DNA of 64,000 nucleotides from Closterium sp. NIES-65 (lineage: Eukaryota > Streptophyta > Zygnematophyceae > Desmidiales > Closteriaceae), in contig CANXME010002654.1 in assembly GCA_948144175.1 (NCBI GenBank), positions 1,178,001 to 1,242,000 of the forward strand, read 5' to 3'. The notes under the pieces were generated by a model that saw only the letters and a program-made list of their open reading frames with translations, made no database searches and was not told where the DNA came from. Positions 4,970 through 63,391 of this stretch are shown in pieces. Numbering within the stretch: the stretch's first letter is position 1; each line of letters starts with the position of its first letter. Made by a program: the position numbers and the translations under genes.

Positions 4970-6620
4970 GGTGTACGACGTGGACGATGATGACCTAGCG
5001 TACAACAACGCCGAGGACGATGAGGAGCTACCGGAGCTCGACCCCGACATGCACGCCGACCCTGAGCACCGCTGGGACATCTCCATGATAACGGTGAAGG
5101 AGGCGTTGGCGAGCTGGAAGGGCAAGGAGGTGAAGGCCGCCATGGAGGAGGAAATCCGCAGCCTCATAAGTATGGGAACTTGGGAGCTGGTCGAACGCCC
5201 GCCCGGGGTGAACATCATGCAGAACCGGTGGGTGTTAACGAGGAAGTACCACATCGACGGCACCGTCGAGCGCGAGAAGGCACGACTGGTCGTGAAGGGC
5301 TTCACGAAACGTACACGCCGGTAAGCAGCTACGTCATACTGAGGATCTTCCTCAGCAACGTCGCCGTCCTCAACCTCAACCTCAACATGAAGAACACCTT
5401 CCTGCAGAGCATGCTTGACTGGGTGCTGTACATGTACCAACCGGACTACTTCAACGACGGGAATGGCCGGGTGTGCAAGCTGCTGAAGAGCCTCTACGGG
5501 CTGAAGCAGTCGCCGCTGCTGTGGTACAGGGCTCTCGATGGCGTGCTGCTGGGTTCTGGCTGGAAGAAGAGCCAAGTCGACACGGCGCTCTACTTCAAGG
5601 TCGGCGCGGACGACGTGGCCTGCTGGGTGCTGGTCTACGTCGACGACCTGCTCACCGCCAGCAGCAGCAACTGAGATGCTGAAGTAACTGAAGGAGCTGC
5701 TGGAGGCCGCCTTCGACCTGCACGAGATCTCGCCGGTGCAGAAGTACCTCGGGCTCGAGATTGTGCGCGACAGGTCGGCGGGGAAGCTATGGCTGCATCA
5801 GCAGGGCTACGCCGACATGCTGCGCAGGCGATTCATTGACGAGGAGCAGACCGGTCGCACCCCAAAGACGCATGTCTTGGTTGACGCCTACACTGAGCTC
5901 ACCTTCGAGGAGGCGCAGGAGCGCCAGGAGGAGTACAGGAAGAAGGTCGGCTCGCTGCAGTTCGCGGCGACGACGACGAGGTTGGACATCGCCTTCGCCT
6001 GCAACAAGAAGGGAAGCGGCCTCACGGTGAGGAGCGACCAGCACTGGCACGAGGTCGACCGCTGCCTCGCCTACCTCACCAACATGCGTGACGCCGCCTT
6101 GGAGTTCGGGGATGGACCTGAATCGCTGAAGCTGGTCGACTACGTGGACGTCGGTGATGGCGGCAACAAGCAAAAGCGGACGAGCACGGCCGGCTACGTG
6201 TTCGTCTACGCAAGGGTTGCGGTCTCCTGGTCGAGCCACCGCATCAAGTGCGAGACACTGTCGTCGACCGAGTTGGAGTACGTGGCGGCCACGGAAGCCG
6301 GTAAGGAGGGACGCCGTCTTCGCTTCCTCCTTGTAGAGTTCCGGCAGCTGGACGGCGGGACGCCGACTGCCCTTCGGGTGGACAACAATTCCGCCATCAC
6401 GGTCGCCGAGGGCATGGGGTTGACGGGCAACCTCAAGCACATGGAGCGACAACAAGCCTGGCTGCAATACATGGTGAAGCACGGAAAATTAACACTGAAG
6501 TACACCCCGACCTCCGAGCAGCCTTCCGACTTCCTGACAAATTTGCTGCACTATCCGGCCTTCCACCGGTGCCCCGTTGCAGTTGGCCAAGTGCATATGG
6601 CCACGTGGGCGACGTGCAGC
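4970..6620 (+). pseudogene. copia-B1 reverse transcriptase and RNase H remnant
   Basis: Copia RT is shown by the block TVKEALASWKGKEVKAAMEE, then MGTWELVERPPG, NRWVLTRKYH, SLYGLKQSPLLWYRAL and the YVDD active site in WVLVYVDDLL (about 5625-5660). From about 5736 the YLGLEIVRD block leads into RNase H, ending near 6600. A diverged second copy lies on the minus strand at 51.0-52.5 kb (copia-B2). An open frame on the opposite strand over 3758-5575 is a composition shadow. Fossil; several breaks. Confidence 0.8.
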
Positions 6621-6753
6621 AGTAGGTGCCATGCCCTCTTACATGGCTGGTGCGGTGACCGGCGTGCTGTGTGTTGGGTGCACGTCGACGGGCTATTCTC
6701 CGAGTAGTGCTGTCGTGTGGGCTGGGCGCCCAAGCGTGAACGCGGCAGGGGAG

Positions 6754-7742: not shown

Positions 7743-9915
7743 TTGTTGGCCTTAGGATATGTTGCTCTCTCAGTTCAGAGCCATTCCAGCCAGCTTGCAA
7801 CACTTCCAATGCTGCTGCTCCACCAGCCTCTTAGTCATCATCTCAGCCGGCTACCTCGTGGTCTTCACGTACCGCAACTCAACTTCACACGCGGCCACCA
7901 TGCTCCTCGTCCAATGCCACTTCACCCTCATGTGCTTGGTGAGGCCATGCAACACAGGGTTCATAGCAAGAGCAATGGCACCCTAGCTGTCACAGTAGAG
8001 TGGGGTAGGTCCTTGCTGCTCCTCCCCCAATTCAGCCAACAAACGCCGCTGCCACACAATCTCCCGTACGGCACGGAAGAGTGCCATGTACTCGGACTCC
8101 AGCGAGCTCAATGCTTGATCAACCTGCTTCTTGCTCTCCCAAGCACTTGGGCCTCCACCAACACAGCAGATGAATCCTCCCACACTTGTCATGTCCTCTG
8201 GTTCCGATGCATAAGAAGCATCCGAGTAGGCGATGAGGAGCAAATGCCCGGGCTCAACTCCATCCGCGCCCTTTTGGCGCCTTTGCGCCGCCACCGAGTA
8301 TTGCAGCCCAACGGTCGGTGTTTGGCCACGATACTTGGCCACCCTCATTCTAGCTGCTACCTGCTCCTCATTAGGGCATTGCATAACCCTAGCCAGCTGC
8401 CCGATAGCGAAGGCCACGTCCGGCCGAGTGTTTACCGCCGCATACATGAGGCTGCCCACCAAAGAGTGAAAACGGCGCCTCTCCTCTTCACCAACGCTCT
8501 CCTCCTCTGGTCCCTTCACACACTTGAACCCAGAGGAAAAGGGTGTAGCCACATGACCTTCACTCTGCCCAAAGTGGTAGCCAACTCCTCCAGGTACTTG
8601 CGTTGGTGCACCCGCATGCACCGCTTCTCCACATCGCGTTCGATGTGAAGCCCGAGGTAGAAGTTCACATCACCAAGGGCCTTGCACAGGAATTTATCTT
8701 GAAGCTTCAGCATCACCTCCTTCACAAGGTTAGAGGAGGGTGAGAATATGAGGATGTCATCCACATACACCACCATGAAGCTCCTCTGCTCCCCCTCGCC
8801 AAGCATGAACAATGAGTGATCGGCCATTGAGGGAGTGAAGCTGATCTCCTCCAACACTTTGCACAGCTTCATGTACCATTGCCTAGGGGCCTGCTTCAGC
8901 CCATAGAGGGCCTTCTTCAGCTTCCACACTCTGCCACTACCATCATCAAACCCGTCTGGCTGCGCCATGAAGATCTCTTCCTCTAGAACGCCGTTGAGGA
9001 ATGCCGTTATTATGTCCATCTGCTTCACCACCCGGCGGCTCCCGTAAATAAGGTTCGCAGCGTCGTCGGCTTCACTACAGGGGCAAACAGCTCCTCGAAT
9101 TCCACCTTCTCCTTCTGCTGGTACCCCTTGGCCACCAACCTAGACTTGTAGCGTTCGATCATGCCGTCGTCGTCCGACTTGATCTTGAAGAGCCACTTGG
9201 ACGTTATCGCCTTACACCCCTCCGGTAGCTCCACCAATTCAAACGTGTCATTCTCCTCAATGCTCTTCAGCTCACTCTCCATGGCCTTCTTGCACTCCTC
9301 AGCATCACTGCTCTCCAAGGCCTCCTTGAGAGTTGCTGGTTCTCCTGGCATCTCCACCGGAGAGAAGAACACGAACGCACACTCGTCGTAGTCACTCTCC
9401 TCGTCGTCTCCGACCATCATTGCCGCTCCGGCCAAGGCTGTCTTGCCTTGATTTCCTGGCGCATCATAGGTCAGCCTAGTAGGGGCTTGGACTCTCCTCT
9501 TTCCCCTTCCATTCTCCTCAGCTGCAGGGAATTGAAGGCCTTGGCGTTGCTGTGGTGTGGCTCGGATCCGTGGAGCACTTGTAGCGCGTGAAGGAAGTAT
9601 CGGTGCACGCTTGCTCACTTGCTGCACTTCCTCCTCTTCTTCCTCCGCATCCTTGGCCTCCTCTCCCCCATTCAAAAGGGAAGATTGCCTTGTGGTGGTG
9701 CTGCCGCTGCTCAACTCCAAAGGCAGCTCCACATGCTCCAAACCGGAACTCTTCACCTCCCCAAACCGCACAACTATCTTCGCCTCGTTCTCCGCCTTCC
9801 TATCCTTGTACATCAGGTTCTCCATGAACTTGCAATCCCTGCTCACCGAGAACTTCTTGGTGAATGGATCCCAATGAAGCCACCTCTTGCTGTTATGAGC
9901 CATGCCCAAGTGCAC
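7743..9915 (-). pseudogene. copia-C1 reverse transcriptase and RNase H remnant
   Basis: Minus-strand RT blocks are DTFELVELPEGCKAITSKWL, RYKSRLVAKGYQQKE, MDIITAFLNGVLEEEIFM, LKKALYGLKQAPRQWY and YVDDILIF (about 8750-8785), then NFYLGLHIERD. RNase H follows with LLIAYSDASYASE and LSSLESEYMALFRA (about 8.0-8.25 kb). The N-terminal part of this block is a charged linker. Gene order and motifs are typical of plant copia. Fossil; broken. Confidence 0.85.
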
Positions 9916-9918
9916 GGC

Positions 9919-11309: not shown

Positions 11310-11313
11310 ATAG

Positions 11314-12188
11314 TGTCGGAAACTCGCCCACCTCCCCAATCTCTTGCCTGCCTCACTCTGTTACCTCCTTCTCTTGCTGTTTGTTCACCGTTGTGTCTCC
11401 CTCACCTCTTCTTACAGTATCTCCTCCATCCCTGGTGGAGCCCTCTCCTTGTCAGTCTTTGCTCTTAGGCCTTGTTTCTGTCTCCCATGATGTACTGTGA
11501 TGCTTACTTCTCTTGCTTCTCTGATGAGCCATGTGCTCCCTCACACACCTCCGCCTCCTAATTGCTATCCTAAGGCTTCATGCTCGTTATGTCTCCCTAG
11601 GTTCCCTACTTGCTCGGTTTGCCGCAATTTATTGGAGTAGAAAGAGAAACGTACAAGCAATGAGAATTGCTACCAAGGCTCCGCCTATTTTACCAGCACA
11701 TGTTCCGCCTCCTCACCTCTGCCCTATCATCCCTGTCTACGCCATAGAGGCTATGAACCACTACGACCAGACTTGCAGCCGTGCTGCTTCCTACCCTACT
11801 CTCCCGCCCCTTGCTACTGTACCTCCAGCTGCTATCATCTAGATCCAGCTGGCTCCCTGGATCAATCCTGCACACACACGAAAACAAACAAGCATGCACT
11901 CGTACACCCATCCATAGCTGGCGCTGTAGTTGCCTTCCTTCCTGCCCCTGCCTTGTTCTGCTGCTGAACCTCGCTGCCATCCCCTTGCTTAGGTAAGTCC
12001 GCCCCATTCCCTCCCTTGCAGCCCTCCAACTCTTCGGCTCGGCAACCCACCCCTCCCTTCACCATATGAAGTTCCATCTGACCCCTCGCCTCCCATCCGC
12101 GTCTTCGCTAAACCGCTATGTACAATTTATACAGTATTTACACCTCGTCTCCTCTCCCCTTACCCTTCACATTCATATAAATGTGACA
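11314..12188 (-). repeat. gypsy-M LTR at the 3' end (875 bp form)
   Basis: On the minus strand it runs TGTCACATTT...TTTCCGACA. The first 667 bp (12188 to 11522) match the LTR at 26823-26156. The remaining 208 bp (11521 to 11314) are absent from that copy but resemble 12395-12191, directly inside this LTR. Confidence 0.8.
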
Positions 12189-12190
12189 TC

Positions 12191-12395
12191 TGTCGGAAAC
12201 TCGCCCACCTCCCCAGTCTCTTGCCTGCCTCACTCTGTTACCTCTTTCTCTTGCTGTTTGTTCACCATTGTGTCTCCCTCACCTCTTCTTACAGTATCTC
12301 CTCCTTCCCTGGTGGAGCCCTCTCCTTATCAGTCTTTGCTCTCAGCCCTTGTTTTTGTCTCCACTGATGTACTCTGCTGCTTACTTCTCTTGCCC
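12191..12395 (-). repeat. Partial tandem copy of the gypsy-M LTR terminus
   Basis: It is nearly identical to 11314-11520 in the same orientation and separated from the LTR by 2 bp. It overlaps the region just after the integrase tail. See the finding on this arrangement. Confidence 0.7.
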
Positions 12396-12639
12396 TCTCC
12401 CATGACCTGCTGCTGCCGCCCTCGCCCTGGTCATGGGACCCGCGTTGCTTGCCGGCTTCTTCTGCTTCCCCGCGCGTGCCACGTTGGTGACATGGTCCAT
12501 AACCCTCTTCCCCTGGCTGTCTTCCAGCACCAAGACACCTGACTCCCTTACCTCCTTCACTTCCCACCTCTGTTGGGATACTCCCACGTCCAACCCGTCT
12601 TTCTTTGCCTGTCGCACGTACAGTGCCTGCCCTTCTTCG

Positions 12640-13550
12640 ATCTCTGGCTACTTTCCCTGCATTTTGCTCAGCTGCCGCTGCTTGTAACGGTGGATATCGC
12701 GCAGCTGTGCTACCTTCAAGCTCTCCATAGCTGCAGGTAGCATCTTCTTCAGGTACCTGGCCCTAGCATCCGCCAGCGCCACCCACTTCTCTGCAGTCCG
12801 AGCTGTCACGCTGTCCACCAGCAGCCTCGACGCATCCACTAGCAGTATGGGCTGCTTCCCAAACAGCAAGTAGTACGGTGAGACGTCCTTCAGGGACGCT
12901 TGCTTGCTGAACCTATACCCCGCCATCACCCACGCCAACTTCCTGTCCCAGTCTCCCTTGTTCGCTTCCCCGTACGCCCTAATGCCTTTCTTCACTGTGT
13001 GCACCAGCTGCTCCGTGAGTCCATCGCTCTGGGGGTGGTACCTGGATGTCGTCCGATGCTGGATGCCGTTCTCAGCCAGCAACTCCTTGAATTCCCCTTG
13101 GAACTCCGTCCTTTGATCCATGAGCACCTCTCCCAAGCCCCAAACCTCGTCAGCACCATCTCCTCGAACGCTTCGGCGACCGCCTCCGCCGTTTTTGCCA
13201 CCAGAGGTATTGCCTCTGCCCACTTGCTTACGTGCTCTATCATGAGCAAGACGTACCTCATGCCCCTTCGCGACACTGGCAGTTCTCTCGCGATGTCTAG
13301 GGACCAGCGGTACCCTAGTTCCACAATAGCCAAGGGCTGGAGTTCTGCCTGGCTCTTCAGCAGGCTGGCCTTGTTCCTGCAGCACAGCTCACACCGTGCC
13401 ACCCATTCCTTCACCTCTTTCCGCATCCCTGCCCACCACCACCCCGTCTGCAGCAGCTGCTGGGTCCTCAGAGGTCCGTAATGCCCCAGCTTACAGTGTA
13501 ATTCTCGTATAATACCCTCTCTCTCTGCTGGCGCCGGTACCCTCTTCCAT
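12640..13550 (-). pseudogene. gypsy-M integrase remnant
   Basis: The zinc-binding HHCC region includes LHCKLGHYGPLRTQQLL and CELCCRNKASLL. The catalytic core follows with LGYRWSLDIARELPVSRRG, VLMDQRTEFQGEFKELLAEN and YHPQSDGLTEQLV. The tail reads toward the LTR with no recognisable chromodomain. Fossil; broken. Confidence 0.85.
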
Positions 13551-13749
13551 CCGTCCTTAGTCTGCAGCTGCACTTGCCCCTGGAACCACCGGTAGTGTTG
13601 TCCCCGCGCCCTTGCTCTTGCCCCTGCTCCTCCGTCCTCCGCTGTTTCTCCCTTAATCCAGGCCAGCGTTTCCTGATCATGCCACACGTCTGCTGCTCCT
13701 CTTTGCTGCTGTCCTCCTGGCTGGTGCTCGCTCACCATGGCAGTGAGCG

Positions 13750-14227
13750 CCGCTGACGGTGGCCCCTGCTGTGTCCCTTGCTTATCTCCTTCACGAGGTG
13801 GGTTCCTGGATAGCCCATCCACGTGTTGCATCGTCTTGCCCGGCCGATGCTTCAGTGTGAAATCGTATTCTTGCAGCTTCATCGCCCACTGCGCGTACCT
13901 GCCTGTCAGTGTCTGGTTGTGCATCAGCCACAGCAATGGCTGATGGTCTGTAACCAGGGTGAAATGCTGCCCCTGCAGGTACACCCTGAAGTGCCCTACT
14001 GCCCAAACCGCCGCTAGTCCCTCCCCCTCGTATGATGAGTAATTAGCTTCTGCGGGGCTGCATGTCCTGCTTGCAAAAGCCACGACCTTCTCCACTCCCT
14101 TGTCCATCTGACTCAGCACTGCCCCCATCCCTATGCTGCTCCAGTCGGTGTAGAGGGTGAACGGCTGCTGTCCATCTGGTAGCCTCAGCACCGCACCCGT
14201 CTTCACTGCTTCCATCAGGCCGCGCAA
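13750..14227 (-). pseudogene. gypsy-M RNase H remnant
   Basis: FTLYTDWSSIGMGAVLSQ, VVAFASRTCSPAEANYSSYE, FTLVTDHQPLLWLM and LKHRPGKTMQHVDGLSR are the classic gypsy RNase H blocks, ending with the DGLSR motif that leads toward integrase. Confidence 0.85.
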
Positions 14228-14236
14228 TGCTGCCTC

Positions 14237-15034
14237 CTATGGCTCCTCCCACCGCCACTTCTGCTCCTCCTTGAGCAGCTGGTTCAAAGGTGCGGCTCTC
14301 TTGCTGAAATTCTCTATGAACTTACGGTAGCAGTTGAGAAACCCCAGCAGTGCGCAAAGGCTGGTCCGGTCCATTGGCCTCTCCACCCTGTCCAGTACTT
14401 CAACCTTGGCTTTCTGGATGCTCAGCTCCCCTCCCGCCACTTCGAATCCTAGGTACGCCACGCTGCCATGCCCGAAGCGGCATTTTCCCGGATGGCAGGT
14501 CAGTCCCGCTGCCTCAATTGCAGTTAGAGTCGCTTCCACATCTCGCACGTGGGTTTCCGCGTCTGGGCTGAAGATGATGGCATCATCTATGTAGCATGCC
14601 GCGCCACTCACTCCCCGTAGCACTGCGTCCATCACTCGCTGGAACACCGCCGATGCATTTTGCAGCCCAAATGGGATGTAGTTCCATTCGTACAGCCCGT
14701 CCGGCCCGTGGAAGGCTGTCTTCTTCTTGTCCTCCTCCGCTATTGGTATCTGATTGAAACCCTGCCGCAAGTCAAGCATAGAGAAGACCCAGCTGCCTTG
14801 CAGTTGATCGAATATTTCGTCAGCCATTGGCATAGGGTACCTATCTGTCGCTGTCACCTTGTTCAGTCCTCTATAGTCTCCGCACATGCGACGAGATAGC
14901 ACCGTGCCCGTGAGGTCAGTCCTTGCTGCCACCACCGTGGCCGCTGCATAGTCTGATGAGGACCGTCGGATCAGTCCTGCTGTCAGCAGCCTTTGACATT
15001 TCTCTGTGCAGATGCTGATGTCCCGCGGGCTCAT
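14237..15034 (-). pseudogene. gypsy-M reverse transcriptase
   Basis: This 265-residue open stretch carries gypsy RT blocks in order: RMCGDYRGLNKVTATDRYPM, FSMLDLRQGFNQIPI, KTAFHGPDGLYEWNYIPFGL, QNASAVFQRVMDAVL, the YIDD active site (about 14585), LTCHPGKCRFG and YLGFEVAGG, then NCYRKFIENFSKRAAPLNQL leading to RNase H. The start is arbitrary because RT would be cut from a polyprotein. Confidence 0.9.
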
Positions 15035-15202
15035 CCTCCTCCTCCTCTAATACACCGGTACCTCGCTGGTCAAAGGTAGGTGCATGGTGCTAGTCATGCA
15101 TTTCCCCAACTGCTGCAGCGTGTGTGCGAATGCAGCTACATGTTGTCGTAGCGCTGCCTCCAATCTCAGCGCCGTCTCCCCATGCATGGCTCCGCCTATG
15201 TC

Positions 15203-15700
15203 CTAACGAGTCTTCTGTCCCTGTGGCTGTGCTACGACCTCCACTTCCCCCAGTCCTTCTCCCCTCCCTGCTTCCCCAACTGCGCCCGGCTCCTCAGGCT
15301 GTTCTATTGTTCTCCCTCCTTCCTCTGTTCCTAGTTCCTCCCCTTCTATTATATCCTCTGCCCGGCTCGCCATGTACGCACGACTGGGCCCCAGAAAGAC
15401 TTCATCTGGATCCGGCATCCACCTCTCCGTGGGGTCCTCCTGCTCCTCTGAGTCCCAGTCCATCTCAGGTTCTCCTTCCCACCACTCTTTGTCTTCTTCT
15501 TCCTGGTCTGGATACCTCCCTGGAACCCCCTGCGGGTCGTTCAGCCTTTCTGTCCTCCTCTCCTGCGGCACTCCCTTTCTCCTCATCTCCCATTCCTCCT
15601 CCTCCAAATGCTCGAGCGGGATCTCGGCCTCTTCCTCTTTTATCTCATCGTCTTGTATCTTTGGCTCAGCCCTGGCTGCGTGATCCCTTCGCCGCTCCAA
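15203..15700 (-). pseudogene. gypsy-M acidic linker between methyltransferase and RT
   Basis: A highly acidic stretch (runs of Glu and Asp, with DWDSEEQEDPTERWMPDPDE) lies between the methyltransferase region and RT. I recognise no domain. It probably serves as an inter-domain spacer of the polyprotein. Confidence 0.5.
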
Positions 15701-16543
15701 TCAGTTCCGCTCCAGGTGTCTGTACAGTGTGCCCACCAGCCAGTGCAGCGCGTTGAGGTCCATCGCCCTTCCCAGCGCCCTCCTCCGTTGTCCCTCTGTC
15801 ACCTCTGTGCTCGCCGTTGCTCCTGCCATGAAGCCCATCGCCAACTCACGTTCCAGTGCAGTCGGCTCCTCCCACACCCCTTTCAGCTGGTCAAACACCA
15901 TCCCTGACCCCTCTACTTCGTCTCTCATCCTAAAGCCCTATGCCCCTTCGTACACTACCAGCGTTGGCCACGCCTGCCGTGGCCTCCCCACCTTGTTGCA
16001 GGGGTACAGTGTCTCATGATCGGGGTGACGCACCGGCGCTGGAATCTGCGCGGGTTCCAGTATGTCCGCCACCAGCCTTGGCCGAGGTCGCTCCATCATT
16101 GACAGCTCGTACTGTAGGACTGCTTCCGGTAGTATGTTTTGCCAGTATCTGCGTGTCCGATGGGTTCGGCTTCCATTTTGCGCAGCGTCCCATGCTACTC
16201 CTGCCCCCAGCTCTCCTCTGATCTCTTCTTCAGCAAGCTTGACCGCCTCCCTCTCATCATCCCTGGTGTCCAAGTTCTCCCAATGTATGCCACCTCTCCC
16301 TGCTTTCGCTTGATCAACTTGAGGATCCTGACCAATTCTCTTAACAGCCCGCTCCTCGGATCACTCATCCCTCTTCCATCTCCGGCCCGCGACATGCCTT
16401 GGCATTCCCAGCCTGGTATCACCAAATCAATGTGCCCCCAACGGGCCAGTGCCTCTTCTTTTACATCCTCCACGCGATGACAGACTCACTCTGCCCCTCG
16501 CTCCACCGCTCCCTTATACAGCTGTGAGGGTTAGCGTTTCTCC
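15700..16543 (-). pseudogene. gypsy-M cytosine-C5 DNA methyltransferase region, later motifs
   Basis: On the minus strand, DLVIPGWECQGMSRAG then DPRSGLLRELVRIL (about 16440-16335) has the layout of motif IV of C5-cytosine methyltransferases. AAQNGSRTHRTRRYWQNIL (about 16185-16130) resembles motif VIII. RQAWPTLVVYEGA (about 15980-15940) fits the stretch before the last motifs. LERELAMGFMAGAT and QRRRALGRAMDLNALHWL (about 15860-15725) resemble motifs IX-X. Order and spacing fit a compact Dnmt3/DRM-size catalytic domain. Known for the family: methylation of cytosine in DNA. The element copy is a fossil and activity is not implied. Confidence 0.72.
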
Positions 16544-16676
16544 TGTCAGAACATTATAGCTTATGCTATTGTGTAGGCTATAGTGGGGTATCCCATAGGG
16601 GGTACAACCCAACTAGGGTTTCATATTTGTACTCGCTTCATTCATAGTTCACATCATTCTTGTTCTAATTTCCTCA
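16544..16676 (+). repeat. copia-A2 5' LTR
   Basis: TGTCAGAACA...TTTCCTCA, followed without a gap by the primer site TGGTATCGAGC. It differs at three positions from 23719-23851. Confidence 0.9.
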
Positions 16677-16778
16677 TGGTATCGAGCAGGTTCCCCCTTG
16701 GGAACTGTGCTTAGGGCCCACCACATCAAGTTTTTTTTTTTCCTGCCCGAAGCGCGCTCAGCCCGAGTCGCGCTCCGG

Positions 16779-17215
16779 GCCCTCACTTCGCCGAGCCGCC
16801 CTAGCGGCCCTTCACTGCGGCCCCGCCGCCTGTCTCAGCGGCCTCGCCGCCCTTTTCTGCGGCCCCGCCGCCTCTCTCGTTGCGGCCCCGCCGCCCTTCA
16901 CGGCGGCCCCGCCACCCGTCTCAGCGGCCCCGCCGCCCGTCTTCGCGGCCCCGCCGCCTGTCTCAGCGGCCTCGCCGCCCTTTTCTGCGGCCCCGCCGCC
17001 TCTCTCGTTGCGGCCCCGCCGCCCTTCACGGCGGCCCCGCCACTTGTCTCAGCGGCCCCGCCGCCCGTCTTCGCGGCCCCGCCGCCTCTCTCGCTGCGGC
17101 CCCGCCGCCCGTCTCAGCGGCCCCGCCGCCCGTCTTCGCGGCCCCGCCGCCTCTCTCACTACGGCCCCGCCGCCCGTCTCTGCGGACCCGCCGCCCCTCT
17201 CGCTGCGGCCCCGAG
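16779..17215 (+). repeat. copia-A2 leader tandem repeats
   Basis: Imperfect repeats of a roughly 24 bp unit built on gcggccccgccgcc, with larger-scale duplication: the block around 16845-16920 recurs at 16970-17045. From about 17250 a second array, gccgcccgagccgccc, takes over. It lies between primer site and gag start. Confidence 0.85.
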
Positions 17216-17591
17216 CCCTACCAGCGGCCCTACGGCCCTACACCGCCCGCGCCACCCGAGCTGCCCGACCCGCCCGAGCCGCCCAAGCCGCCTGAGCTCC
17301 TGAGGAGCCGAGCCGCCCGACCCGCCCGAGCCGCCCGAGCCGCCCGAGTCGCCCGAGCCCCCTGAGCCGCTGAGGAGCCGAGCCGCCCGACCCGCCCGAG
17401 CCGCCCGAGTCGCCTGAGCCGCTGTGGAGCCGAGCCGCCCGAGCCGCCCGAACCGCAGTTGCTGCTGAGCCGTCCAAGCAGCCGCGTTGCTGTGCTGCTG
17501 AGCTTCCCGACCCGCCCTGTCTGGTGAGAGCAGCGCTCCTGTCACTGCACTGCCCCTGTCCTACAGGAACTACTGCTAGGCTACTGTCGTC

Positions 17592-18980
17592 ATGGCTACC
17601 CCTAGTGTCCTCGCTTTTGACGCTGAGGGTCGGGCCATTGACTTTGAGGTCTGGGTAGACGACCTGCAGCTGTTCTTACAGTGCGATAGGGCAGACGGCC
17701 TCTCTCTCTTTGACCTTACCTCTGGCGCCTCCCCTGCCCCTGCTGCTGATGCTGACGCCACTGTTCGCTCCCAGTGGGCCACGCGCGACGCTGCTGCACG
17801 TCTTGCTGTGCGTCGCCACCTCCCTACCTCCGAGCGTGCGCACTTTAGTCAGTACAAGAGTGCTCAGACCTTGTACGACGCTATAGTCGCGCGCTACTCC
17901 TCCCCTGCCACTGCTGCACTGAGCCGTCTCACGCTACCGTACCTCTTCCCTGACCTTGCTGCCTTTCCCACCGTGGCTGACCTCATTACGCACCTCCGCA
18001 CTAGTGACACTCGCTACCGCGCTGCACTCCCTGCTGACTTCTGCGCCAAGAACCCCCCCCCCCCATGTACATCACTCTGTACTTTCTAGTCACTCGCCTT
18101 CCTGACTCCCTTCGAGTAGTCAGGGACCACTTTCTCACAGTCTGTCCCACCACACTCACTGTCGATCTCCTCGAGAAGGCCCTCTTAGCAGCGGAGAAGA
18201 GTATAGTCGCTGTAGGAGACTCTCGAGGTGACCCGCGCAACCCCATCTTTGAGGGGTGTCCCCCCTCCCCCCTGCTGCCCTCTGTTGCCTCTGCTGCTAC
18301 GGCCGACCTCCTTGGTCTTGAGTCGGTCGGTGCGGCGTCTGCCCCTAGCGGGAGACGCCGCCCTGGCAAGGGCAAGGGGGGCAAGGGAGCTGGAGGAGCG
18401 GGCGGTGGAGGTGGAGGTGGAGGCGGTGGGGGTAGTGGGGGTGGCGGTGGAAGTGGAGGTGCGGGTGGGGGGGTCGGTGGCGGCGGTGGAGGCGGAGGCG
18501 GCGGCGGCGGTGGCGGTGGCGGTGGGAGCGGAGGTGGCGGAGGAGGCGGCGGCAATAGCGGAGGCGGCGGAGGCGGTGGGGGTGGCGGTGGAGCTAGTCG
18601 CGGGCCTTCGCAGAGGAGTGGCTCCGGTAGTGGCGCGCGCCAGCAGCAGCAGCGCGGTCGTGAGACCCTGCCCCCTCAGCAGCTCCGTGAGTGGTACACT
18701 GCACGCCAGCGGGGTGGGGGTTTTGGTCCGTGCACCTACGTCCTGCGCACCGGCGACCGTGCGGGTGAGCAGTGTGGGGGTCCGCACCCCACCCAGCGCT
18801 GCTTTGGCCGCCTGACGGACGCGTGGCGTCACCAGTTCCCGGAGGCCTCAGAGATTCCTCGCTGGGGCGAGCTGTCTAGGGCGGGTGTTGCCATCTTTGA
18901 TCTTGACTTTGATGCTATTCTCTCTGCCATGTATGCTGTGTCTCATAGTGATGAGGGTGACTGCTACCGCTGTTTCCCGC
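17592..18980 (+). pseudogene. copia-A2 gag region
   Basis: It starts MATPSVLAFDAEGRAIDFEV and aligns with copia-A3 gag throughout: the capsid-like part, a long Gly tract, PPQQLREWYTARQ, then a Cys/His cluster with spacing CX13CX3HX4C (about 18738-18810). Fossil; broken. Confidence 0.85.
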
Positions 18981-20639
18981 CCGATCCGGGCATTGAGGCT
19001 GCTGCCCTAGGTGCTTGCGACGCTGCTGCTCTAGGTGCTAGTGTATCTGCGTCCTCAGGTACTGGTGAGTCTGCGCTCTCAGGTACTACATCGGCTTCGG
19101 CCTCCCTCACCTTCACTCTTGACTCTGGGGCGTCTCGCTCCTTCTTTCGGGACCGCACCACACTCACGCCGCTTAGTCGGCCGGTTGCGGTGTCTCTGGC
19201 TGACCCCTCCGGGGGTCCTGTACTGCCTCGCTTCTTCACAGTCCTCCCGTGTCCGGCGGCTCCCTCTGGCACCCTGTCTAGTCTCTACCTCCCCTCGTTC
19301 TCAACGAACCTGGTGAGTGGTGCTGACCTACAGGATGAGGGAGTACACCAGTTCACTCCTGCGCGTCAGCGGGTGACGCACTGTACAGAGGCTAGCACAG
19401 GCCGGCACCTGGCTACGTTTACCCGTCAGCCGGGGTCGAGCCTGTACACACTGACCACTGCGTCTCCTCCCGTTACCGAGTCTGGTAGAGTCGCTTCGTC
19501 CGGTCAGGTGTTTGCTGCAGCGTCTAGGTCTGGTCCTGAGTCTGCCCCCTGTTCGTGTCGTCTCTTGTCTCATGAGACTCTCCTCTGGCACCACCGTCTT
19601 GGTCACCCCTCTCTGCTTTGGCTCAGAGGCATGGCCTCCCGTCTTCTTGTGTCTGGTCTCCCCCGGTCCCTCCCTCCCCTTCCTCAGGGCCCTGGCCCTG
19701 CCTGTCTCCCCTGTGTCGAGGGGCGCCAGCGGGCTGCCCCTCACTCCTCCCAGTTTCCTCCGACAGAGGCCCCGTTGCAGACGCTTCACATGGACGTGTG
19801 GGGCCCAGCCCGCGTCCGTGGACAGGGTCACGAGCGCTACTTCCTGCTCGTTGTTGACGACTACTCGCGTTACACCACGGTCTTCCCCTTGCGCAGCAAG
19901 GGTGATGTCACTGAGGTGCTGATCGACTGGATCCGCGCGGCTCGTCTCCAGCTCAGGTGGAGCTTTGGCTCGGACTTTCCTGTTCTGCGTCTGCACTCGG
20001 ACAGAGGCGGAGAGTTTTCCTCTAACCTACTGCAAGCCTAATATTGCGCACGAGGCATCCGTCAGACCTTCACGCTTCCGGACTCACCGCAGCAAAATGG
20101 GATTGCTGAGCGCCGCATTGGCATGGTCATGGACGTCGCTCGTACGTCTATGATGCATGCGGTTGCCCCCCATTTTCTGTGGCCGTTTGCGGTCAGGTAC
20201 GCGGCGCATCAGATAAACCTCCACCCCAGGGTCTCTAGACCGGAGACCTCCCCAGCCTTACTGTGAACGGGGAAGGTTGGCGATGCATCGGCGTTCTGGG
20301 TCTGGGGATCTCGGGCGTTTGTCCGCGACTTGTCTGCGGACAAGCTGTCCCCTCGTGCTGCTCCTTGCGTCATCCTGGGGTTCCCCCCTGACGCGCCTCG
20401 GTGGCAGTTCTACCACCCCACCTCTCGACGTGTTCTGTCCTCCCAGGATGTCACGTTTGACGAGTCAGTCCCCTACTACCGTCTCTTCCCCTACCGCACT
20501 CCGTCCCTCTCCCCACCCCCGCTCTTCCTTGTACGAGGTCCCCCCCAGGTAGACTCCCTCCCCCCTCAGGGTCCTGCCCCTTCAGGTGTGTCCCAGGTAG
20601 ACGCAGTCGAGCCTGTCGAGGTCACGGGTGACTCTGGTG

Positions 20640-20880
20640 CTGCTGGGGGTGCTGAGCCTGGGGATGCTGGACCTGGGGGTGCGGAGTCTGGGGGTGCTGA
20701 GCCTGGGGGTACTGCGTATGGGGGTACTGAGCCTGGGGGTACTGAGCCTGGGGGTGCTGAGCCTGGGGGTGCTGAGCTTGGGGGTGCTACGCCTGGGGGT
20801 GCTGAGCTTGGAGGTGCTACGCCTGGGGGTGCTGAGCCTGGAGGTGGCTACGCCTGGGGGTGCTGAGAGTGGAGGTGCTC
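20640..20880 (+). repeat. copia-A2 coding minisatellite (15 bp unit)
   Basis: About 15 units of cctgggggtgctgag or close variants, reading Pro-Gly-Gly-Ala-Glu/Thr in the pol frame. It lies between integrase and RT. Matching arrays occur in A3, A4 and A5 with different lengths. Confidence 0.85.
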
Positions 20881-21899
20881 CGCCTGGAGGTTCTCCGGGT
20901 GCTTCTTCTTGCCGGGAGCCACTCTCTCCACAGGAGCTGCGCGAGTGGTTTGCCCGGCGCTGGCGCCGTACTGCTGGTGCTGGAGGTTCTTCGGCGGCTG
21001 AGGGTGCTGCGGTCGCGGGTCCCGGAGGTGCTCGTACTGGGAGTACTGGAGCTGCTGGGCCTACGGGTTCGACTGGAGCTGGTGCTGCTGAGGGTGTTGG
21101 CGCTGAGACTACCGCTGGCGGTCCTCCTGGGGGTGCTCCTGGTGCTGCTGGAGGTGCTGCTGGAGCGGGTGCTCCTGCTGAGGGTACTGGTGCTGTCCGT
21201 GCTGCTTCTAGCGTCGTCACGCGGCCTCGACCGTACTTTGTTCCACTCCTGCAGCAGGTTCTTGGTCTTCCTCCTTCTACTGGTCCTTCTCCTCCCTTAG
21301 AGTGTCCACAGCCTGTCCCGTCATAGTCATTGCTACAGCCTGCCTCCCCTCTGCCTGCTCCTTCTCCCTACGCTGGTCCTACTGGAGGTCTTACTGAGCG
21401 TCGTGAGCCTGCGTCTCGTCTTGCGTCGCCTGTTAGAGCTGCTCGCGCTAGTGGTCGCAGTTCGCGCCATCGTCCTCCTCCTGTCCCTGGCACGCACCGG
21501 ATGTCTCTGCGTCCGTCTACTGCTCCTCTACGTGCTCCTTTGCCTTCCCCTCCTGAGTCCTCTCTTCCTACACTTGCCGACCCTGAGTCGGACTCTCTTC
21601 GTGCTGCCAGTCCTACTGTCACGCGTCTTCTTGCTACTGTTGTCACTGACCCTTCTTTCGAGTCTACTGCTGCGTCTGCTCTCGTTACTGAGCTCGTCGA
21701 CTTTGCTGCTCGCTACCGCTTAGACTACGCTGCTAGTCTTGTCGCTGAGTCTGAGTCTGTCTGTCCTCCGTCCGTCGTGGGTGAGTGTGCCCTTGGCACG
21801 GACGTCCTTGAGGACGGGCAAGAGGAGTCCCAGTGTCTGGCAGCTGCTTCACCTCATCTCGTGTCCGTACTACTTACCCCTGAGGGAGACCCGGATGCA

Positions 21900-23510
21900 C
21901 TTGACATCCCGACTCCGCGCTCTTACGCGGAGGCGATAGAGGGTCCCTACTCCTCTCAGTGGCAGGCAGCTATAGATGCAGAGATGGCTTCCTGGGGCAA
22001 ACATCGTCAGCTATGGAAGTCCACAGGCACCTACGTTGACGCTGTCCCCCCTCCTGGGGCGAACATCGTCAGTGGCATGTGGATTTTCAGGGTGAAGCGG
22101 CCGCCGGATTCTCCGCCTGTCTTCAAGGCGCGTTACGTGGCTCGTGGCTTCAGTCAGCGGCAAGGAGTTGACTACTTTCAGACCTTCTCCCCCACCCCGA
22201 AGATGACCACTCTTCGGGTACTGCTGCACATTGCTGCTCACCGTGACTACGAGCTCCACTCTCTTGACTTCAGCACAGCTTTCTTGCAGGGCAGCCTGCA
22301 CGAGGAGATCTGGCTGCGCCGCCCACCTGGCTTCACTGGGTCTTTCCCTCCTGGTACCCAGTGGAGTCTCCGGCGTCCAGTCTACGGTCTCCGCCAGGCG
22401 CCACGTGAGTGGCACGACACACTGAGGACTACGCTTGCGGCTCTTGGGTTTGCTCCTTCTACTGCCAACCCGTCGCTGCTTCTGCGCACCGACACCTCTC
22501 TGCCGCCGTTCTACATCCTCGTGTACGTCGACGACTTGGTCTTTGCCACAGCTGACACTGCTGGACTCGCCTACGTGAAGTCCGAGCTGCAGAAGCGACA
22601 CACGTGCACAGACCTGGGTGAACTGCGCAGCTACCTTGGCTTGCAGATCACCCGGGACAGAGCACGCCGCACCATTACCCTGACTCAGTCACACATGGTG
22701 CAGCAGGTCCTTCAACGCTTCGGCTTCACGTACTCCTCGCCTCAGGCCACTCCTCTGCCTACTCGCCACTCACTCTCAGCTCTGCCTTCGGATGAGTCCG
22801 TAGAGTCGAGTGGCCCGTATCCAGAGCTTCTTGGCTGCCTCATGTACCTGATGACCTGCACACGACCTGACCTTGCATACCCTCTTAGCATTCTTGCACG
22901 CTATGTTGCTCCTGGGAGACACCGACCAGAGCACATGGCTGCAGCGAAGAGGGTGTTGCGCTACTTGTGCAGTACGTCGGGCATGGGGCTAGTGCTTGGA
23001 GGGCGGAGTCCAGTGGTCCTCACTGGGCACGCGGAGGCTTCTTGGGCTGACGACCAGGCTACGCAGCGGTCGTCACAGGGTTACACCTTCAGTCTTGGTT
23101 CCGGCTCTGTTTCGTGGCGGGCTACCCGCTCGTCTTCTGTTCTCGGCTCCAGTTGTGAGGCTGAGATCTACGCTGGGGCTATGGCTGCCCAGGAGCTTCG
23201 CTGGCTCACCTACCTGCTGACCGACCTTGGAGAGCCGCCTCGTTCTCCTCCAGTCCTGTACGTAGACAACAAGGCCATGCTGGCCTTGTGTCGAGAGCAG
23301 CGACTAGAGCACAGGACAAAGCACATTGCTCTCCATTACTTTCTTGCTCGTGAGCTACAGCAGCGTGGTCAGTTGCGGCTTGCGTACGTGGCCTCTGAGG
23401 CCAACACTGCTGATGTTTTCACCAAGGCACTTGCGCCTTGTGATCATCAGCGCTTCTGCACTCAGCTGGGTCTTGTGCCTGTCTTGCCTCACTTGCTCAC
23501 TTCTTGGCCT
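21900..23510 (+). pseudogene. copia-A2 reverse transcriptase and RNase H
   Basis: RT blocks are SYAEAIEGPYSSQWQAAIDA, FKARYVARGFSQRQGVDYFQ, LDFSTAFLQGSLHEEIWLRR, VYGLRQAPREWHDTL and YVDDLVFATADTAGL. RNase H follows with ASWADDQATQRSSQGYTFSL and ANTADVFTKALAPCDHQRF. It is closely alike to copia-A3. Confidence 0.9.
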
Positions 23511-23718
23511 TGCTTGTACTGTCACATATATATACTCCTGCTCTTGCTTGCTTAGCCTCGTATATATATTTATGTGCTCTTGCATGTGAAGTGGCCTTTT
23601 GGCCTTTGAACTTGTGCTCGGAATGTGTGGTGACTTTGTGATCCACCCTGAGCTTTGCTTTGCTTTGCTTGACTGGTCTTGTGACCCCTTGTTCTCCCCC
23701 ACTTTGCCTATGGGGGTG

Positions 23719-23851
23719 TGTCAGAGAATTATAGCTTATGCTATTGTGTAGACTATAGTGGGGTATCCCATAGGGGGTACAACCCAACTAGGGTTTCATA
23801 TTTGTACTCGCTTCATTCATAGTTCACATCATTCTTGTTCTAATTTCCTCA
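23719..23851 (+). repeat. copia-A2 3' LTR
   Basis: TGTCAGAGAA...TTTCCTCA after the purine tract tatgggggtg. gypsy-M sequence resumes at 23852. Confidence 0.9.
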
Positions 23852-24003
23852 CCTCCAGCTTCTTGATGTGGTGCCAAGACATGGTGCTTGCCGCATCGTC
23901 ATTGTCTAGATAGATGTATTTCTCCACACGCAGTCCTGCCTTTAGCACTGCTGCCAACCCCGCGCTGATGCCGCCGAATAACTCCAGGAGCACGATCGGC
24001 TTC
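23852..24003 (-). pseudogene. gypsy-M cytosine-C5 DNA methyltransferase region, motif I end
   Basis: On the minus strand this reads IVLLELFGGISAGLAAVLKA then GLRVEKYIYLDND. That is the S-adenosylmethionine-binding motif I pattern (hydrophobic-LFxGI-G, a helix, then an acidic residue closing the next strand). It lies directly downstream of the protease region and just before the copia-A2 insertion. Across the insertion about 50 residues separate it from the motif IV-like block, which is usual for this enzyme class. Confidence 0.72.
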
Positions 24004-24248
24004 TAGAACACTCTACTGTCCAGATGCAGTTGCTTTAGGCTCCCACTCTCCCCCTACTGCTGACGGTGCCAGTCCGGTTACCGCCTCTCCTCTTCTAGCT
24101 CTTCCCAGTTCATCCGCCCCAACTCCTATTCTGCCGTCTTCACTTCCGCCTGGTAGGCCTCTCGCGGCTCACGGCGAATGAAACGCACGGGTAGCTCCGC
24201 CAGGCGACCGTCATACTCACAGTACGTCACTCTGTACATCAGTTTCTC

Positions 24249-24760
24249 CTACCACATGCAGATAGTCGAGCCGATGCTGTACAGGAACTCGACTCCCAAG
24301 AGCAGGTCGTAGTCTTTTGACGGTGAGATACCACACTGCAGCTTCGCAGAACATTCTTCTGGACTTCCCCCCCTGATCATGATCTCGACCGTCGCCCGCG
24401 TCTTTGGCATCCATTTTGTTCCTCCTCCCTCCGCCGTCATTAACAGTAGTCCCTCGGCTATCTGCCTCTCCTGCCTGTCCAGCTGTAGCTGTTCCGCCAA
24501 CCGTTTCCCTATCAGCACTGGACGCGCGCCCGTGTCGATGATGGCCTGCTTCACCGGCAGTCCCCCAACTGTGATATACACCTTCTCCGCCACTAGCACT
24601 AACGCCGCACAGCTCAGCCTCTCCAGTGGGTGACGCGGAGGCGGTATCCCTTCTCTAGCCTCCCCTGCCTGTCGCCTGGGTCCCTGCTCCTGTGGTCCTT
24701 CGGTCCTTGGTCGCAAGTACCTCTCCCTCAGCCTCAGGCCCAGCTCTTCTCTTTCCCTGG
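24249..24760 (-). pseudogene. gypsy-M aspartic protease
   Basis: AIIDTGARPVLIGKRLAEQL contains the DTGA active-site motif of retroviral-type proteases, and YDLLLGVEFLYSIG is the second conserved block. It follows an acidic gag tail (EEEEEEGSEEEF) and precedes the methyltransferase region. Confidence 0.82.
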
Positions 24761-24899
24761 CAGGCCTCGTCATCAGGCAGAATTCTTCCTCGCTCCCTTC
24801 TTCCTCCTCCTCTTCCCTTGCCACCATGGCCGGCCTTCTCTCCTTGCCCTTCTCACGTTCCTCCAACTGGGCTCGCAACCTTTCAATCTCTGCCCGCAT

Positions 24900-26141
24900 T
24901 TATGCCATTTCCCCCTTCTCCCTCGGCTCTCCTCGGCGCGAGTAGCAGTCCCGCTCTCCGTGACCCTTCCTTCCGCATTTCTCGCACGTAGGCGCCTCCG
25001 GACAGTCCCTCCTCAGATAATCCTCCTTGCCGCAGATGGAGCACCCAGGTGGGTTGCGGCAGTCTCGCCGCAGATGCCCGCCCCTGCCGCAATTATGACA
25101 CTTCCTCGTGTCCGCCGGTCCCCTTGGCGGACGTCCGAACTCCACTGGGCTTGCGCTCCATGCCGGCCTCCGCCTTTCCGCTGACCTTTTACTCATCCAT
25201 TCCACCTCGAACAGCCGCCGGCCGGTCTCCACCCTTTTTGCCGTCTCGTACGCAATCCTCAGTGTTGATATTGCCCCCATCTCGAAGATCTTCACTTGTA
25301 CGTCCCACTGCAACTCTTAGTTCATACCATTGAGAAATTTGCTGACGAGTCGTCCTTGATCCACGCAGTTCATGTCCTCCCCGAGCTCCACTAACTGGCC
25401 GTATTATGCCAAGAGGGATTCTCCCGTCCTCCGCTTGAAGTCTTGAAATTCGACAACCCGCTCTGGTGTTTGCAGTGGGAACTGATCGCGGCCAAAAATC
25501 ACTTCGTGGGAACTGATCCACAAATCGCTTCGTGGGATCTCTTTCCCCCGGCCTTCCTTGCTCTGCCCAATCCAGGAGCTCCCGGCGGCAGATCCGGTAG
25601 TACGTCTTTGCCTCTCCTGTCAGCGTGTTGGCCAATCCTCTAAAGAACTCGTCTGCCGCCAACCAATCTTGCTCCCATCACGCGTGCAGATTCTCCAACT
25701 GCATCAGGTAATTCTTGTATAACGGCCCGCGTCGGCTTTCTCCGGAGAATCGTTCTGGCACTTCCACCTTTGGGAGCATGTGTAACGCCATCGTGCTGAT
25801 GCCGCTTCTTCTTCAAATCCCTACCACGACGCGCTACGCTGATACGGCCGATCACTGCCTTTCCTTCCTCCCGTCGTCGCGGCGCCCTCTAAGGAAATGG
25901 GCTTCTCCACCCCGGCGTCGTCTCCTTCCTTCTCCGTCCCGCGCGGCAATTCGCGCTCGACATCGGACCCTGTGGCTCCTCCCGTTCTCCCTGTCAGATC
26001 TCCTTCCGCGCTGTGCGCGCTTGCCTCTCCGCCGGTTCCGAGCTCGTTCTTCTCACCGTCTCCCATCGTTCTCATCTCTGCTATCAAATTCTTCGCTGCG
26101 AAATCTAGACCTGACCTTGTGGGCATGCCCCCACCGTCCAC
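24900..26141 (-). pseudogene. gypsy-M gag remnant with three zinc knuckles
   Basis: The capsid-like segment includes MAADEFFRGLANTLTGEAKT and YYRICRRELLDW (about 25.66-25.58 kb). The nucleocapsid at about 25.12-24.93 kb holds three consecutive CCHC-type knuckles: CHNCGRGGHLRRDC, CSICGKEDYLRRDC and CEKCGRKGHGERDC. Three knuckles are more than the one or two usual in gypsy gag. Fossil; broken. Confidence 0.8.
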
Positions 26142-26155
26142 CGATTGCTTGTATG

Positions 26156-26823
26156 TGATGAGCCCTGTGCTCCCTCACACACCTCCGCCTCCTAATTGCT
26201 ATCCTAAGGCTTCATGCTCGTTATGTCTCCCTAGGTTCCCTGCTTGCTCAGTTTGCCGCAATTTACTGGAGTAAAAAGAGAAACATACAAGCAATGAGAA
26301 TTGCTACCAAGGCTCCGCCTATTCTACCAGCACATGTTCCGCCTCCTCACCTCTGCCCTGTCATCCCTGTCTACGCCATAGAGGCTATGAACCACTACGA
26401 GCAGACTTGCAGCCGTGCTGCTTCCTACCCTACTCTCCCGCCCCTTGCTACTGTACCTCCAGCTGCTATCATCCAGATCCAGCTGGCTCCCTGGAGCAAT
26501 CCTGCACACATACGAAAGCAAACAAGCATGCACTCGTACACCCATCCATAGCTGGCGCTGTAGTTGCCTTCCTTCTTGCCCCTGCCTTGTTCTGCTGCCG
26601 ATCCTCGCTGCCATCCGCTTGCTTAGGTAAGTCCCGCCCCATTCCCTCCCTTGCAGCCCTCCGACTCTTCGGCTCGGCAACCCACCCCTCCCTTCACCAT
26701 ATGAAGTTCCATCTGACCCCTTGCCTCCCATCCGCGTCTTTGCTAAACCGCTATGTACAATTTATACAGTATTTACACCTCGTCTCCTCTCCCCTTACCC
26801 TTCACATTCATACAAATGTGACA
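26156..26823 (-). repeat. gypsy-M LTR at the 5' end (668 bp form)
   Basis: On the minus strand it runs TGTCACATTTGTATG...GGGCTCATCA. It matches 12188-11522 and lacks the 208 bp extension seen at the other end. I could not identify a primer site in the sequence that follows. Confidence 0.85.
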
Positions 26824-26827
26824 ATAG

Positions 26828-28639: not shown

Positions 28640-29560
28640 TTCCCTCGCGGCCCCGCTGTCCCTCAGACGCGGCCCCGCCACCTCTCCTGATCGCGGCCCC
28701 GCCGCCTACTTGACGCGGCCCCGCCGCCTCCCCTGACGCGGCCCCGCCGCCTCCCCTGACGCGGCCCCGCCGCCTCCCCTGACGCGGCCCCGCCGCCTCC
28801 CCTGACGCGGCCCCGCCGCCTCCCCTGACGCGGCCCCGCCTCTACTGCCGCGGCCCCGCCGCCGCCTCTGACGGCCCCGCCGCTGCACCCTACGGCCCGC
28901 CGCTGCACCCTACGACCCGCCGCTGCTCCTGCCGGCCCGCCGCCTCACCTGACGGCCCCGCCGCTGCTCCTGCCGGCCCGCCGCTGCTCCTGCCGGCCCG
29001 CCGCTGCACCTGCCGGCCCGCCGCTGCACCCAGCGGCCCGCCGCCTCTGACGGCCCCGCCGCTGCACCCTACGGCCCGCCGCTGCTCCTGCCGGCCCGCC
29101 GCCTCACCTGACGGCCCCGCCGCTGCACCTGCCGGCCCGCCGCTGCACCCTACGGCCCGCCGCTGCACCCTACGGCCCGCCGCCTGCACCTGCCGGCCCG
29201 CCGCTGCACCTGCCGGCCCGCCGCTGCACCTGCCGGCCCGCCGCTGCACCTGCCGGCCCGCCACTGCACCGGTCGACCCGCCGCTGCACCTGACGGCCCC
29301 GCCCCTGCATCTCCCGGCCGAGCCGCCCCAGCAGCCGAACCGCCCGGGAGCCGAGCCGCCCAACGCCGAGCCGCCCGGGACCCGAGCCGCCCTGCCGCCG
29401 AGCCGCCCGGGAGCCGAGCCGCCCTGCACCCGAGCCGCCCAGCCGCCGAGCCGCCCGGGAGCCGAGCCGCCCTGCGCCCGAGCCGCCCAGCCGCCGAGCC
29501 GCCCGAGAGCCGAGCCGCTGTGCACCCGAGCCGCCCGGTCGCTGAGCCGCCTTTCTGCAT
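28640..29560 (+). repeat. copia-A3 leader tandem repeats
   Basis: Three successive arrays: gacgcggccccgccgcctcccct (about 28705-28840), tgccggcccgccgctgcacc (about 28880-29300) and gagccgcccgggagccgagccgcc (about 29320-29545). All lie between primer site and gag start. Open frames on the minus strand here (Arg/Gly/Ala-rich) are composition artefacts. Confidence 0.85.
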
Positions 29561-29650
29561 AGCTGCACGACCTGCCCTGCCTGGTGAGCACAGTCCCACT
29601 GACACTGCGAGCTCTTTCCCTACTGCTTGCACTGCGTCGCTATCGTCGCC

Positions 29651-41300: not shown

Positions 41301-41319
41301 GTTGCTGCTGAGTCTGGTC

Positions 41320-63170: not shown

Positions 63171-63391
63171 GAGCGTGAGATCTTGCTGCAGCTCCCCTTT
63201 GAACCAGGTAGTGACGCCGTCGGTCGAGCCGATGTAGAGCAGGTCGTCTACGCTGACGATGAGTAGAATGTAGTCGGAAGTGTGAGTCGCTCGTAGTAAA
63301 TGACATCACGTGCTGCTACTGTTTCCTTTGAGTGGACGTCAAAAATCTTCCATGCGTTGTAATTCTTTTCGATGCCCAGGTGTAGTCCCCA

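Follow-up and report, generated by a model that had tools for sequence, protein, structure and literature searches.

The stretch analysed here, referred to as the window, comprises 64,000 nucleotides of the alga Closterium sp. NIES-65 (assembly GCA_948144175.1, contig CANXME010002654.1, positions 1,178,001 to 1,242,000 of the forward strand), and holds a decayed Gypsy-type retrotransposon in which a domain resembling cytosine C5 methyltransferases lies between the aspartic protease and the reverse transcriptase (RT). The element occupies 15,510 bp of the minus strand (11314-26823, with the 5' end at 26823), inclusive of a copia-type element nested in it. Its termini are TGTC and GACA, and it is flanked by a 4-bp target site duplication, ATAG on the plus strand, with the left copy at 11310-11313 and the right copy at 26824-26827. 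The original prediction, made from the sequence letters alone, had placed methyltransferase motifs between protease and RT on the minus strand of an interval from 15700 to 24003. All the peptides that it quoted were located on that strand, and the interval does contain the methyltransferase with the copia element inside it, but the retrotransposon itself is wider.

Domains, decay and repeats of the window element

The order of the coding parts is gag, protease, C5 methyltransferase, RT, RNase H and integrase, all on the minus strand. The gag remnant (25149-25671) was detected by tblastn with the gag sequence of L019, an intact relative from the same genome, as two stretches of 65-66% identity with one stop and one frame change. 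An open frame with CCHC zinc knuckles (24900-25316) was read from the translation, the corresponding parts of the relatives matching PF00098. The protease (24180-24629) matches PF13975 above its cut-off (E = 8.2e-7; 59% to L019) and includes the block YDLLLGVEFL, located on the translation at 24282-24311. The RT and RNase H region, with one stop, spans 13823-15172 (PF00078, E = 1.9e-30; PF17917, E = 2.3e-35; 68% to L019), and the integrase, in two frames, spans 12906-13654 (PF17921, E = 1.4e-16; 71-72% to L019), with PF00665 giving 16.9 bits, below its cut-off.

The methyltransferase is found in two pieces, which align with that of L019 in three co-linear stretches. The N-terminal piece (23856-24002) carries motif I (23946-23990; LLELFGGISAGLAAV) and is 53% identical to L019 over 23835-23999 (E = 5.7e-13). 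The C-terminal piece (15725-16542), in two frames and with a PF00145 match, contributes the stretches of 54% and 61% identity (jointly E = 1.7e-84) and contains motif IV (16381-16428; DLVIPGWECQGMSRAG), a VI-like motif (approx. 16268-16282, counted by hand), the VIII-like block HRTRRYWQN (approx. 16136-16162, counted by hand on the translation) and motif X (15737-15790; QRRRALGRAMDLNALHWL), motifs I, IV and X having been located on the translation. A separate profile comparison of the pieces, as had been proposed, was successful in part: PF00145 was matched by 16195-16485 (E = 1.2e-6; 28.7 bits, cut-off 22), but the other three of the four pieces (23856-24002, 15938-16360 and 15701-15937) gave no Pfam match at E ≤ 10.

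The domain is split by the copia element, which lies on the plus strand (16544-23851) between long terminal repeats (LTRs) of 133 bp that are 97.7% identical (16544-16676 and 23719-23851). The 5-bp flanks of this insertion, TCTCC and CCTCC, match at four of five positions, and its long open frames (18038-20041 and 21327-23555, plus strand) are similar to other copia copies of the window. The N-terminal methyltransferase piece ends in ...HHIKKLE and the C-terminal one restarts at SQLYKGAVERGAE. Since the relative L016 spans the same site with HHIKKLEARYPSQLYAEAVQEGAE, about four residues separate the two pieces. Stops or frame changes interrupt gag, methyltransferase, RT and integrase alike, and the window element is a dead, decayed and copia-interrupted copy.

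The repeats are arranged as A1-coding-B1-A2-B2 rather than as simple flanking LTRs. Repeat A1 (26156-26823, 668 bp), at the 5' end, is 96.7% identical to A2 (11522-12188), and B1 (12191-12417), which stops 2 bp before A2, is 91.3% identical to B2 (11314-11540), which forms the 3' end and overlaps A2 by 19 bp in the alignments. The dinucleotide GA is found between the end of B1 and the TGTC that starts A2. A reading as plain 668-bp LTRs, based on the A pair alone and TG...CA ends, was also tried and yielded a target duplication in none of 15 elements (the window copy and 14 similar ones), because the second repeat B lies beyond A2. Plain LTRs were dropped, as taking A1 and B2 for the ends gave duplications in 10 of 12 elements.

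A high-copy family in the host genome

When the host assembly (874 Mb, 2,400 contigs) was searched with one methyltransferase domain of the family, 1,406 first-look candidates emerged, and at least 120 of them were scored as relatives. The match was stop-free in 84 of these 120 places, 21 of which also belong to open frames that are 2,000 residues long or longer. A search with the domain of another subfamily led to 125 scored places out of 1,464, the first 26 being new with respect to the first set. These copy counts are lower bounds that are at the same time inflated by near-identical duplicate stretches of the assembly, suspected because identical scores for GRAS genes recur on several contigs.

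Four polyproteins from four subfamilies (1,953-2,281 residues) were scanned, and each contains, in this order, zinc knuckle, protease, methyltransferase, RT, RNase H and integrase. PF17921 and PF00665 were both found in the integrase of all four, and PF00145 was matched with 31-35 bits against its cut-off of 22, while the protease matches of three of them (L019, L021 and L014) are below the curated cut-offs, with E values from 7e-5 to 1e-3. Other Gypsy copies with the domain between protease and RT, which the original prediction had suggested looking for, do exist. What it had named as evidence to the contrary, namely the lack of a profile match for either piece or an unrelated sequence in this interval of the relatives, was not encountered. 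One subfamily has, in addition, two long open frames, of 466 and 406 residues, opposite to the polyprotein strand (both in L022, L024 and L029, that of 466 residues in L025 and that of 406 in L023), which may be an effect of codon usage. L069-L071, three Gypsy elements of other kinds that were fetched from 150 listed in this genome, differ from the family: they have an RT 34-37% identical to that of L019 and a protease, read by eye, with no methyltransferase match between the two in any of the three.

Among 20 fetched loci, the 14 with a detectable A pair show 96.6-100% identity between A1 and A2, so that many insertions are recent. The full A-coding-B-A-B layout recurs: of 15 elements examined, 13 have the A pair and 12 of these also have the B pair, the exceptions being L014, in which B2 is missing, and L018 and L020, whose fetched stretches contain no A pair. 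With TGTC and GACA taken as termini, perfect target duplications of at least 4 bp were seen around 10 of the 12 elements that have both repeats, one of them being the window copy. B1 and A2 meet within a few bases, and in seven of the 12 (L011, L016, L024, L025, L026, L028 and L030) GC is followed by TGTC; in those beyond these seven and the window copy, the alignment edges differ. As B2 ends in GACA and A2 begins with TGTC, the inner B1-A2 junction can be read as a probable copy of the two ends of the element joined to each other. A tRNA primer site begins with TGG. This trinucleotide was found at the A1 boundary in none of 11 elements, and farther in in four of them, so that there is no obvious site for the usual tRNA primer, and other priming is possible. 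On its 5' side, L019 adjoins a tandem array with 30-bp spacing.

Trees of the methyltransferase and of the RT from 15 elements recovered the same five groups (L011 with L013 and L017-L019; L014 with L015; L016 with L021; L020 with L026; and L022-L025), which fits a single capture followed by joint descent. The deep branching order differs between the two trees, where the methyltransferase tree is weak (74/83). Closterium sp. NIES-65 hosts a high-copy Gypsy-type family with a gag-protease-methyltransferase-RT-RNase H-integrase polyprotein, A-coding-B-A-B repeats and, in most of the elements checked, short target duplications of the type that integrases produce.

The methyltransferase and its known counterparts

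The C5 methyltransferase motifs are referred to by their customary numerals, and DRM enzymes carry them in a permuted order. The aligned domains of the family show the unpermuted order I, IV, VI, VIII, X, which is that of Dnmt3. None of the 23 aligned intact domains deviates at the catalytic Cys, at the Glu of motif VI or in the HR.RR signature, which contains the motif VIII Arg. Motif IV is unusual. All 31 intact domains read AGWEC, with an invariant Trp-Glu-Cys, and the window copy, with PGWECQG, likewise has Glu-Cys. The Glu aligns with the Pro of the SPC motif in DNMT3A, Pro-Cys being present in all eight reference enzymes compared.

The best solved relatives in a single-sequence search were DNMT3A and DNMT3B (E = 4e-8). 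A profile built from the 23 domains also ranked DNMT3A first among solved structures (up to 60.6 bits), followed by the DRM entry 4onj (39 bits, a match that covers only motifs I-IV at the end of 4onj), M.HhaI (37 bits) and DNMT2 (19 bits). By sequence, then, the family enzyme is classed as a Dnmt3-like C5 methyltransferase, set apart from both Dnmt3 and DRM by the Glu that replaces the motif IV Pro and by its fusion within a retrotransposon polyprotein.

The ratio of nonsynonymous to synonymous substitution rates (Ka/Ks) of the domain has a median of 0.07 and a maximum of 0.11 in the nine of 465 pairs of the 31 domains with 0.1 < Ks < 1, and is of the same order as that of protease, RT and integrase, mostly 0.03-0.25 where Ks is usable. 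The near-identical pair L022/L025 gave a methyltransferase value of 0.24 and a protease value of 1.23, the latter resting on very few changes. Low values are favoured by the sampling, as the domains were picked as intact. The methyltransferase domain is under purifying selection.

The closest published counterpart is KnitGypsy-Dnmt3 of Klebsormidium nitens (de Mendoza et al. 2018, PMC5890265), described, in the part of that article drawn upon here, as an LTR Gypsy element with an intronless Dnmt3 in its Pol frame, DIRS-like repeats and purifying selection (Ka/Ks < 0.2). The same text states that the key residues of its Dnmt3 are conserved, and that K. nitens holds fewer copies of its element than Symbiodinium. 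The Gypsy domain set, the Dnmt3-like enzyme in the Pol frame, the DIRS-like repeats and the low Ka/Ks values are all shared by the Closterium family, which differs from it in its host and in its many copies, and which has target duplications and the invariant Trp-Glu-Cys of motif IV, the comparison being with the published description of KnitGypsy-Dnmt3. SymbioDIRS-Dnmt3 of Symbiodinium, in the same partial account (PMC5890265), also has a Dnmt3-like enzyme in Pol with RT and A-coding-B-A-B repeats, but is a DIRS element with a tyrosine recombinase, whereas the family described here has a Gypsy-type integrase and target duplications. The presence of PF17921 and PF00665 in all four scanned polyproteins and the duplications around 10 of 12 elements likewise distinguish it from DIRS elements in general. 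With Ty3/Gypsy elements it shares the order gag, protease, RT, RNase H and integrase, with the integrase after RT and RNase H, as well as short target duplications, but not simple flanking LTRs or a TGG at the A1 boundary. The presence of the methyltransferase between protease and RT sets it apart from the three other Gypsy elements of its own genome. A 2025 paper that cites the 2018 work mentions, in the passage considered, DNMT3 members within retrotransposons of streptophytes and dinoflagellates (PMC12344493).

By architecture, the family is almost certainly the same kind of element as KnitGypsy-Dnmt3, in another host. The original prediction, that the window contained a Gypsy element with a C5 methyltransferase of the type reported by de Mendoza and co-workers, was thus supported by the domains of the window copy, the four open polyproteins and the A-coding-B-A-B repeats. 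Four points go beyond the portion of PMC5890265 considered: the host group, a streptophyte with open copies in large number, the 4-bp target duplications and a motif IV with Glu-Cys.

Proposed function and origin of the enzyme

Since methyltransferase, RT and integrase share one reading frame and are translated together, the enzyme would be present where the complementary DNA (cDNA) of the element is made. It would be produced in an amount equal to that of RT and integrase, be freed, or left fused, after cleavage by the protease, and act on newly made cDNA before or at integration. As a result, the cDNA might be marked as self or shielded from defences that attack cytosine, or the chromatin of the target might be set. 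The B1-A2 junction, as a probable copy of the joined ends, would allow the two termini to be restored in the course of a DIRS-like replication with no evident tRNA primer site. For the present enzyme, the role considered likeliest is the methylation of new cDNA or of target chromatin, which de Mendoza et al. proposed for DIRS-type elements (PMC5890265), cDNA methylation being a tentative assignment that is put at somewhat less than an even chance. The explanation as a whole, by which the window element is a decayed copy of a family of the KnitGypsy-Dnmt3 kind and the enzyme has the role just outlined, is judged to be the best one and is probably right.

Several observations weigh against this explanation. 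The Glu-Cys of motif IV in place of Pro-Cys in 31 of 31 domains could mean altered or lost catalysis. Production of the KnitGypsy enzyme in yeast led to no methylation, a result that the authors, in the text considered, call inconclusive (PMC5890265). The 94 differences between A1 and A2 repeats reveal no clear CpG decay (14 CpG transitions, 26 CHG-like, 19 other transitions and 35 transversions), and the observed/expected CpG ratio of element bodies (0.72-0.85) falls between those of copia (0.67-0.70, two stretches) and of other Gypsy elements (0.80-1.15, three elements), so that neither measure provides an independent sign of heavy CG methylation. Finally, L024 and L025 (two of the 12 elements with A and B repeats) lack a target duplication; as their flanks are identical, they may represent one insertion assembled twice.

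The invariant replacement of the motif IV Pro by Glu, together with the reading EHL instead of ENV in one subfamily (L022, L048), would also suit a domain that no longer methylates and is kept as a cytosine- or nucleic acid-binding component of the particle. However, if binding were its sole task, the loss of one or more among the catalytic Cys, the motif VI Glu and the motif VIII Arg would be expected, yet all three are invariant in 23 of 23 domains, and such a role is considered unlikely. Given its odd motif IV, the enzyme might have a changed chemistry, act on RNA or on a hybrid, or bind without catalysing. In a broader formulation, of which we are doubtful, the family would be a hybrid lineage that combines Gypsy enzymes, DIRS-type repeats and integrase-style duplications with an old Dnmt3-like enzyme of its own, diversified into at least five subfamilies and with its site rebuilt around Trp-Glu-Cys. 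If so, the enzyme may act on the RNA of the element or on an RNA:DNA hybrid, or by a changed chemistry, and may be needed for transposition.

An element bearing the kind of enzyme that is used to silence elements is a paradox for which few lineages are known. The many young open copies make it possible to ask by experiment whether new insertions methylate themselves and whether transposition depends on the enzyme, and the invariant Glu-Cys is a natural case in which to test the strictness of the Pro-Cys requirement of C5 methyltransferases. The repeat structure, in turn, raises the question of how an integrase element with DIRS-type ends is replicated.

The origin of the domain was addressed with a tree of motifs I-VIII in which 19 of the 27 rows belong to the family. 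It united the family with support of 100/99 on a stem of 1.76 changes per site and joined it to DNMT3A at 84/72, with long branches and a single Dnmt3 row. By analogy with the elements of PMC5890265, descent from a host Dnmt3 is likely, though weakly supported. Such descent could have taken place twice, with this lineage and KnitGypsy gaining Dnmt3-like domains separately, as the difference in hosts and the long stem of the family would allow. Both, however, unite a Dnmt3-like enzyme encoded in Pol with Gypsy domains and with DIRS-like A-B-A-B repeats, a set of features that would be hard to arrive at twice, so that independent capture appears rather improbable.

A phage- or bacterium-like C5 methyltransferase, in place of a host Dnmt3, was also considered as the source. 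With the full family profile, five phage enzymes reached 55-67 bits versus 52.5 bits for the DNMT3A fragment, which covers motifs I-VIII only. With the I-VIII profile, four of the five reached 57-68 bits versus 55.8 for DNMT3A, the fifth being below it at 54.0, and tblastn phage matches had E values as low as 4e-13. On the other hand, full DNMT3A chains lead the search of solved structures (up to 60.6 bits), with DRM second, and the family groups with DNMT3A in the tree, though at 84/72 and with long branches. Scans with patterns that demand the family's own motifs found no relative in IMG/VR (23 stretches) or GTDB (85 stretches). The phage matches (300 and 459 records, each below 60% identity) and the 46 plasmid matches resemble, among those listed, general C5 methyltransferases. 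A phage or bacterial source is held to be improbable, and descent from a host Dnmt3 is preferred.

A search of the host genome with a human DNMT3A fragment revealed no canonical host Dnmt3 (104 matches, none above 37.9 bits; the six best were examined and are element-like), although introns could hide one. This would be in line with the suggestion, made in the original prediction, that the enzyme substitutes for lost host maintenance methylation, but the host genome carries, at two sites, a DNMT1-RFD domain of MET1 type (E = 6.3e-17), which makes that role very improbable.

The remainder of the window contains further repetitive sequences. Open frames with a copia-type RT (RVT_2) are found at 9025-9918, 29603-35509, 41281-44358, 47991-49640 and 62250-63305. 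The copia copies on the plus strand are 81-99% alike over shared stretches and contain 15-bp repeats coding for GGAEPGG-like runs, and arrays of short repeats with a spacing of approximately 8 to 45 bp (28754-29603 and 38068-38892) adjoin copia elements. The stretches 5005-6684 and 50738-52463 are inverted copies of one element, 79-92% complementary over separate stretches, and a weak Gypsy integrase match at 52958-53566 (27% identity, E = 2e-14) probably marks another retroelement. Elsewhere in the host genome, GRAS genes gave 98 matches (best E = 1.6e-54), which makes a zygnematophycean alga or a land plant, and not Klebsormidium, the most likely type of host. The high GC content of the window and the small number of dynein genes would suggest Zygnematophyceae. 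Dynein heavy chain matches on contigs C811, C892, C1632 and C2061 seemingly represent a single gene that is present as three or four near-identical copies.

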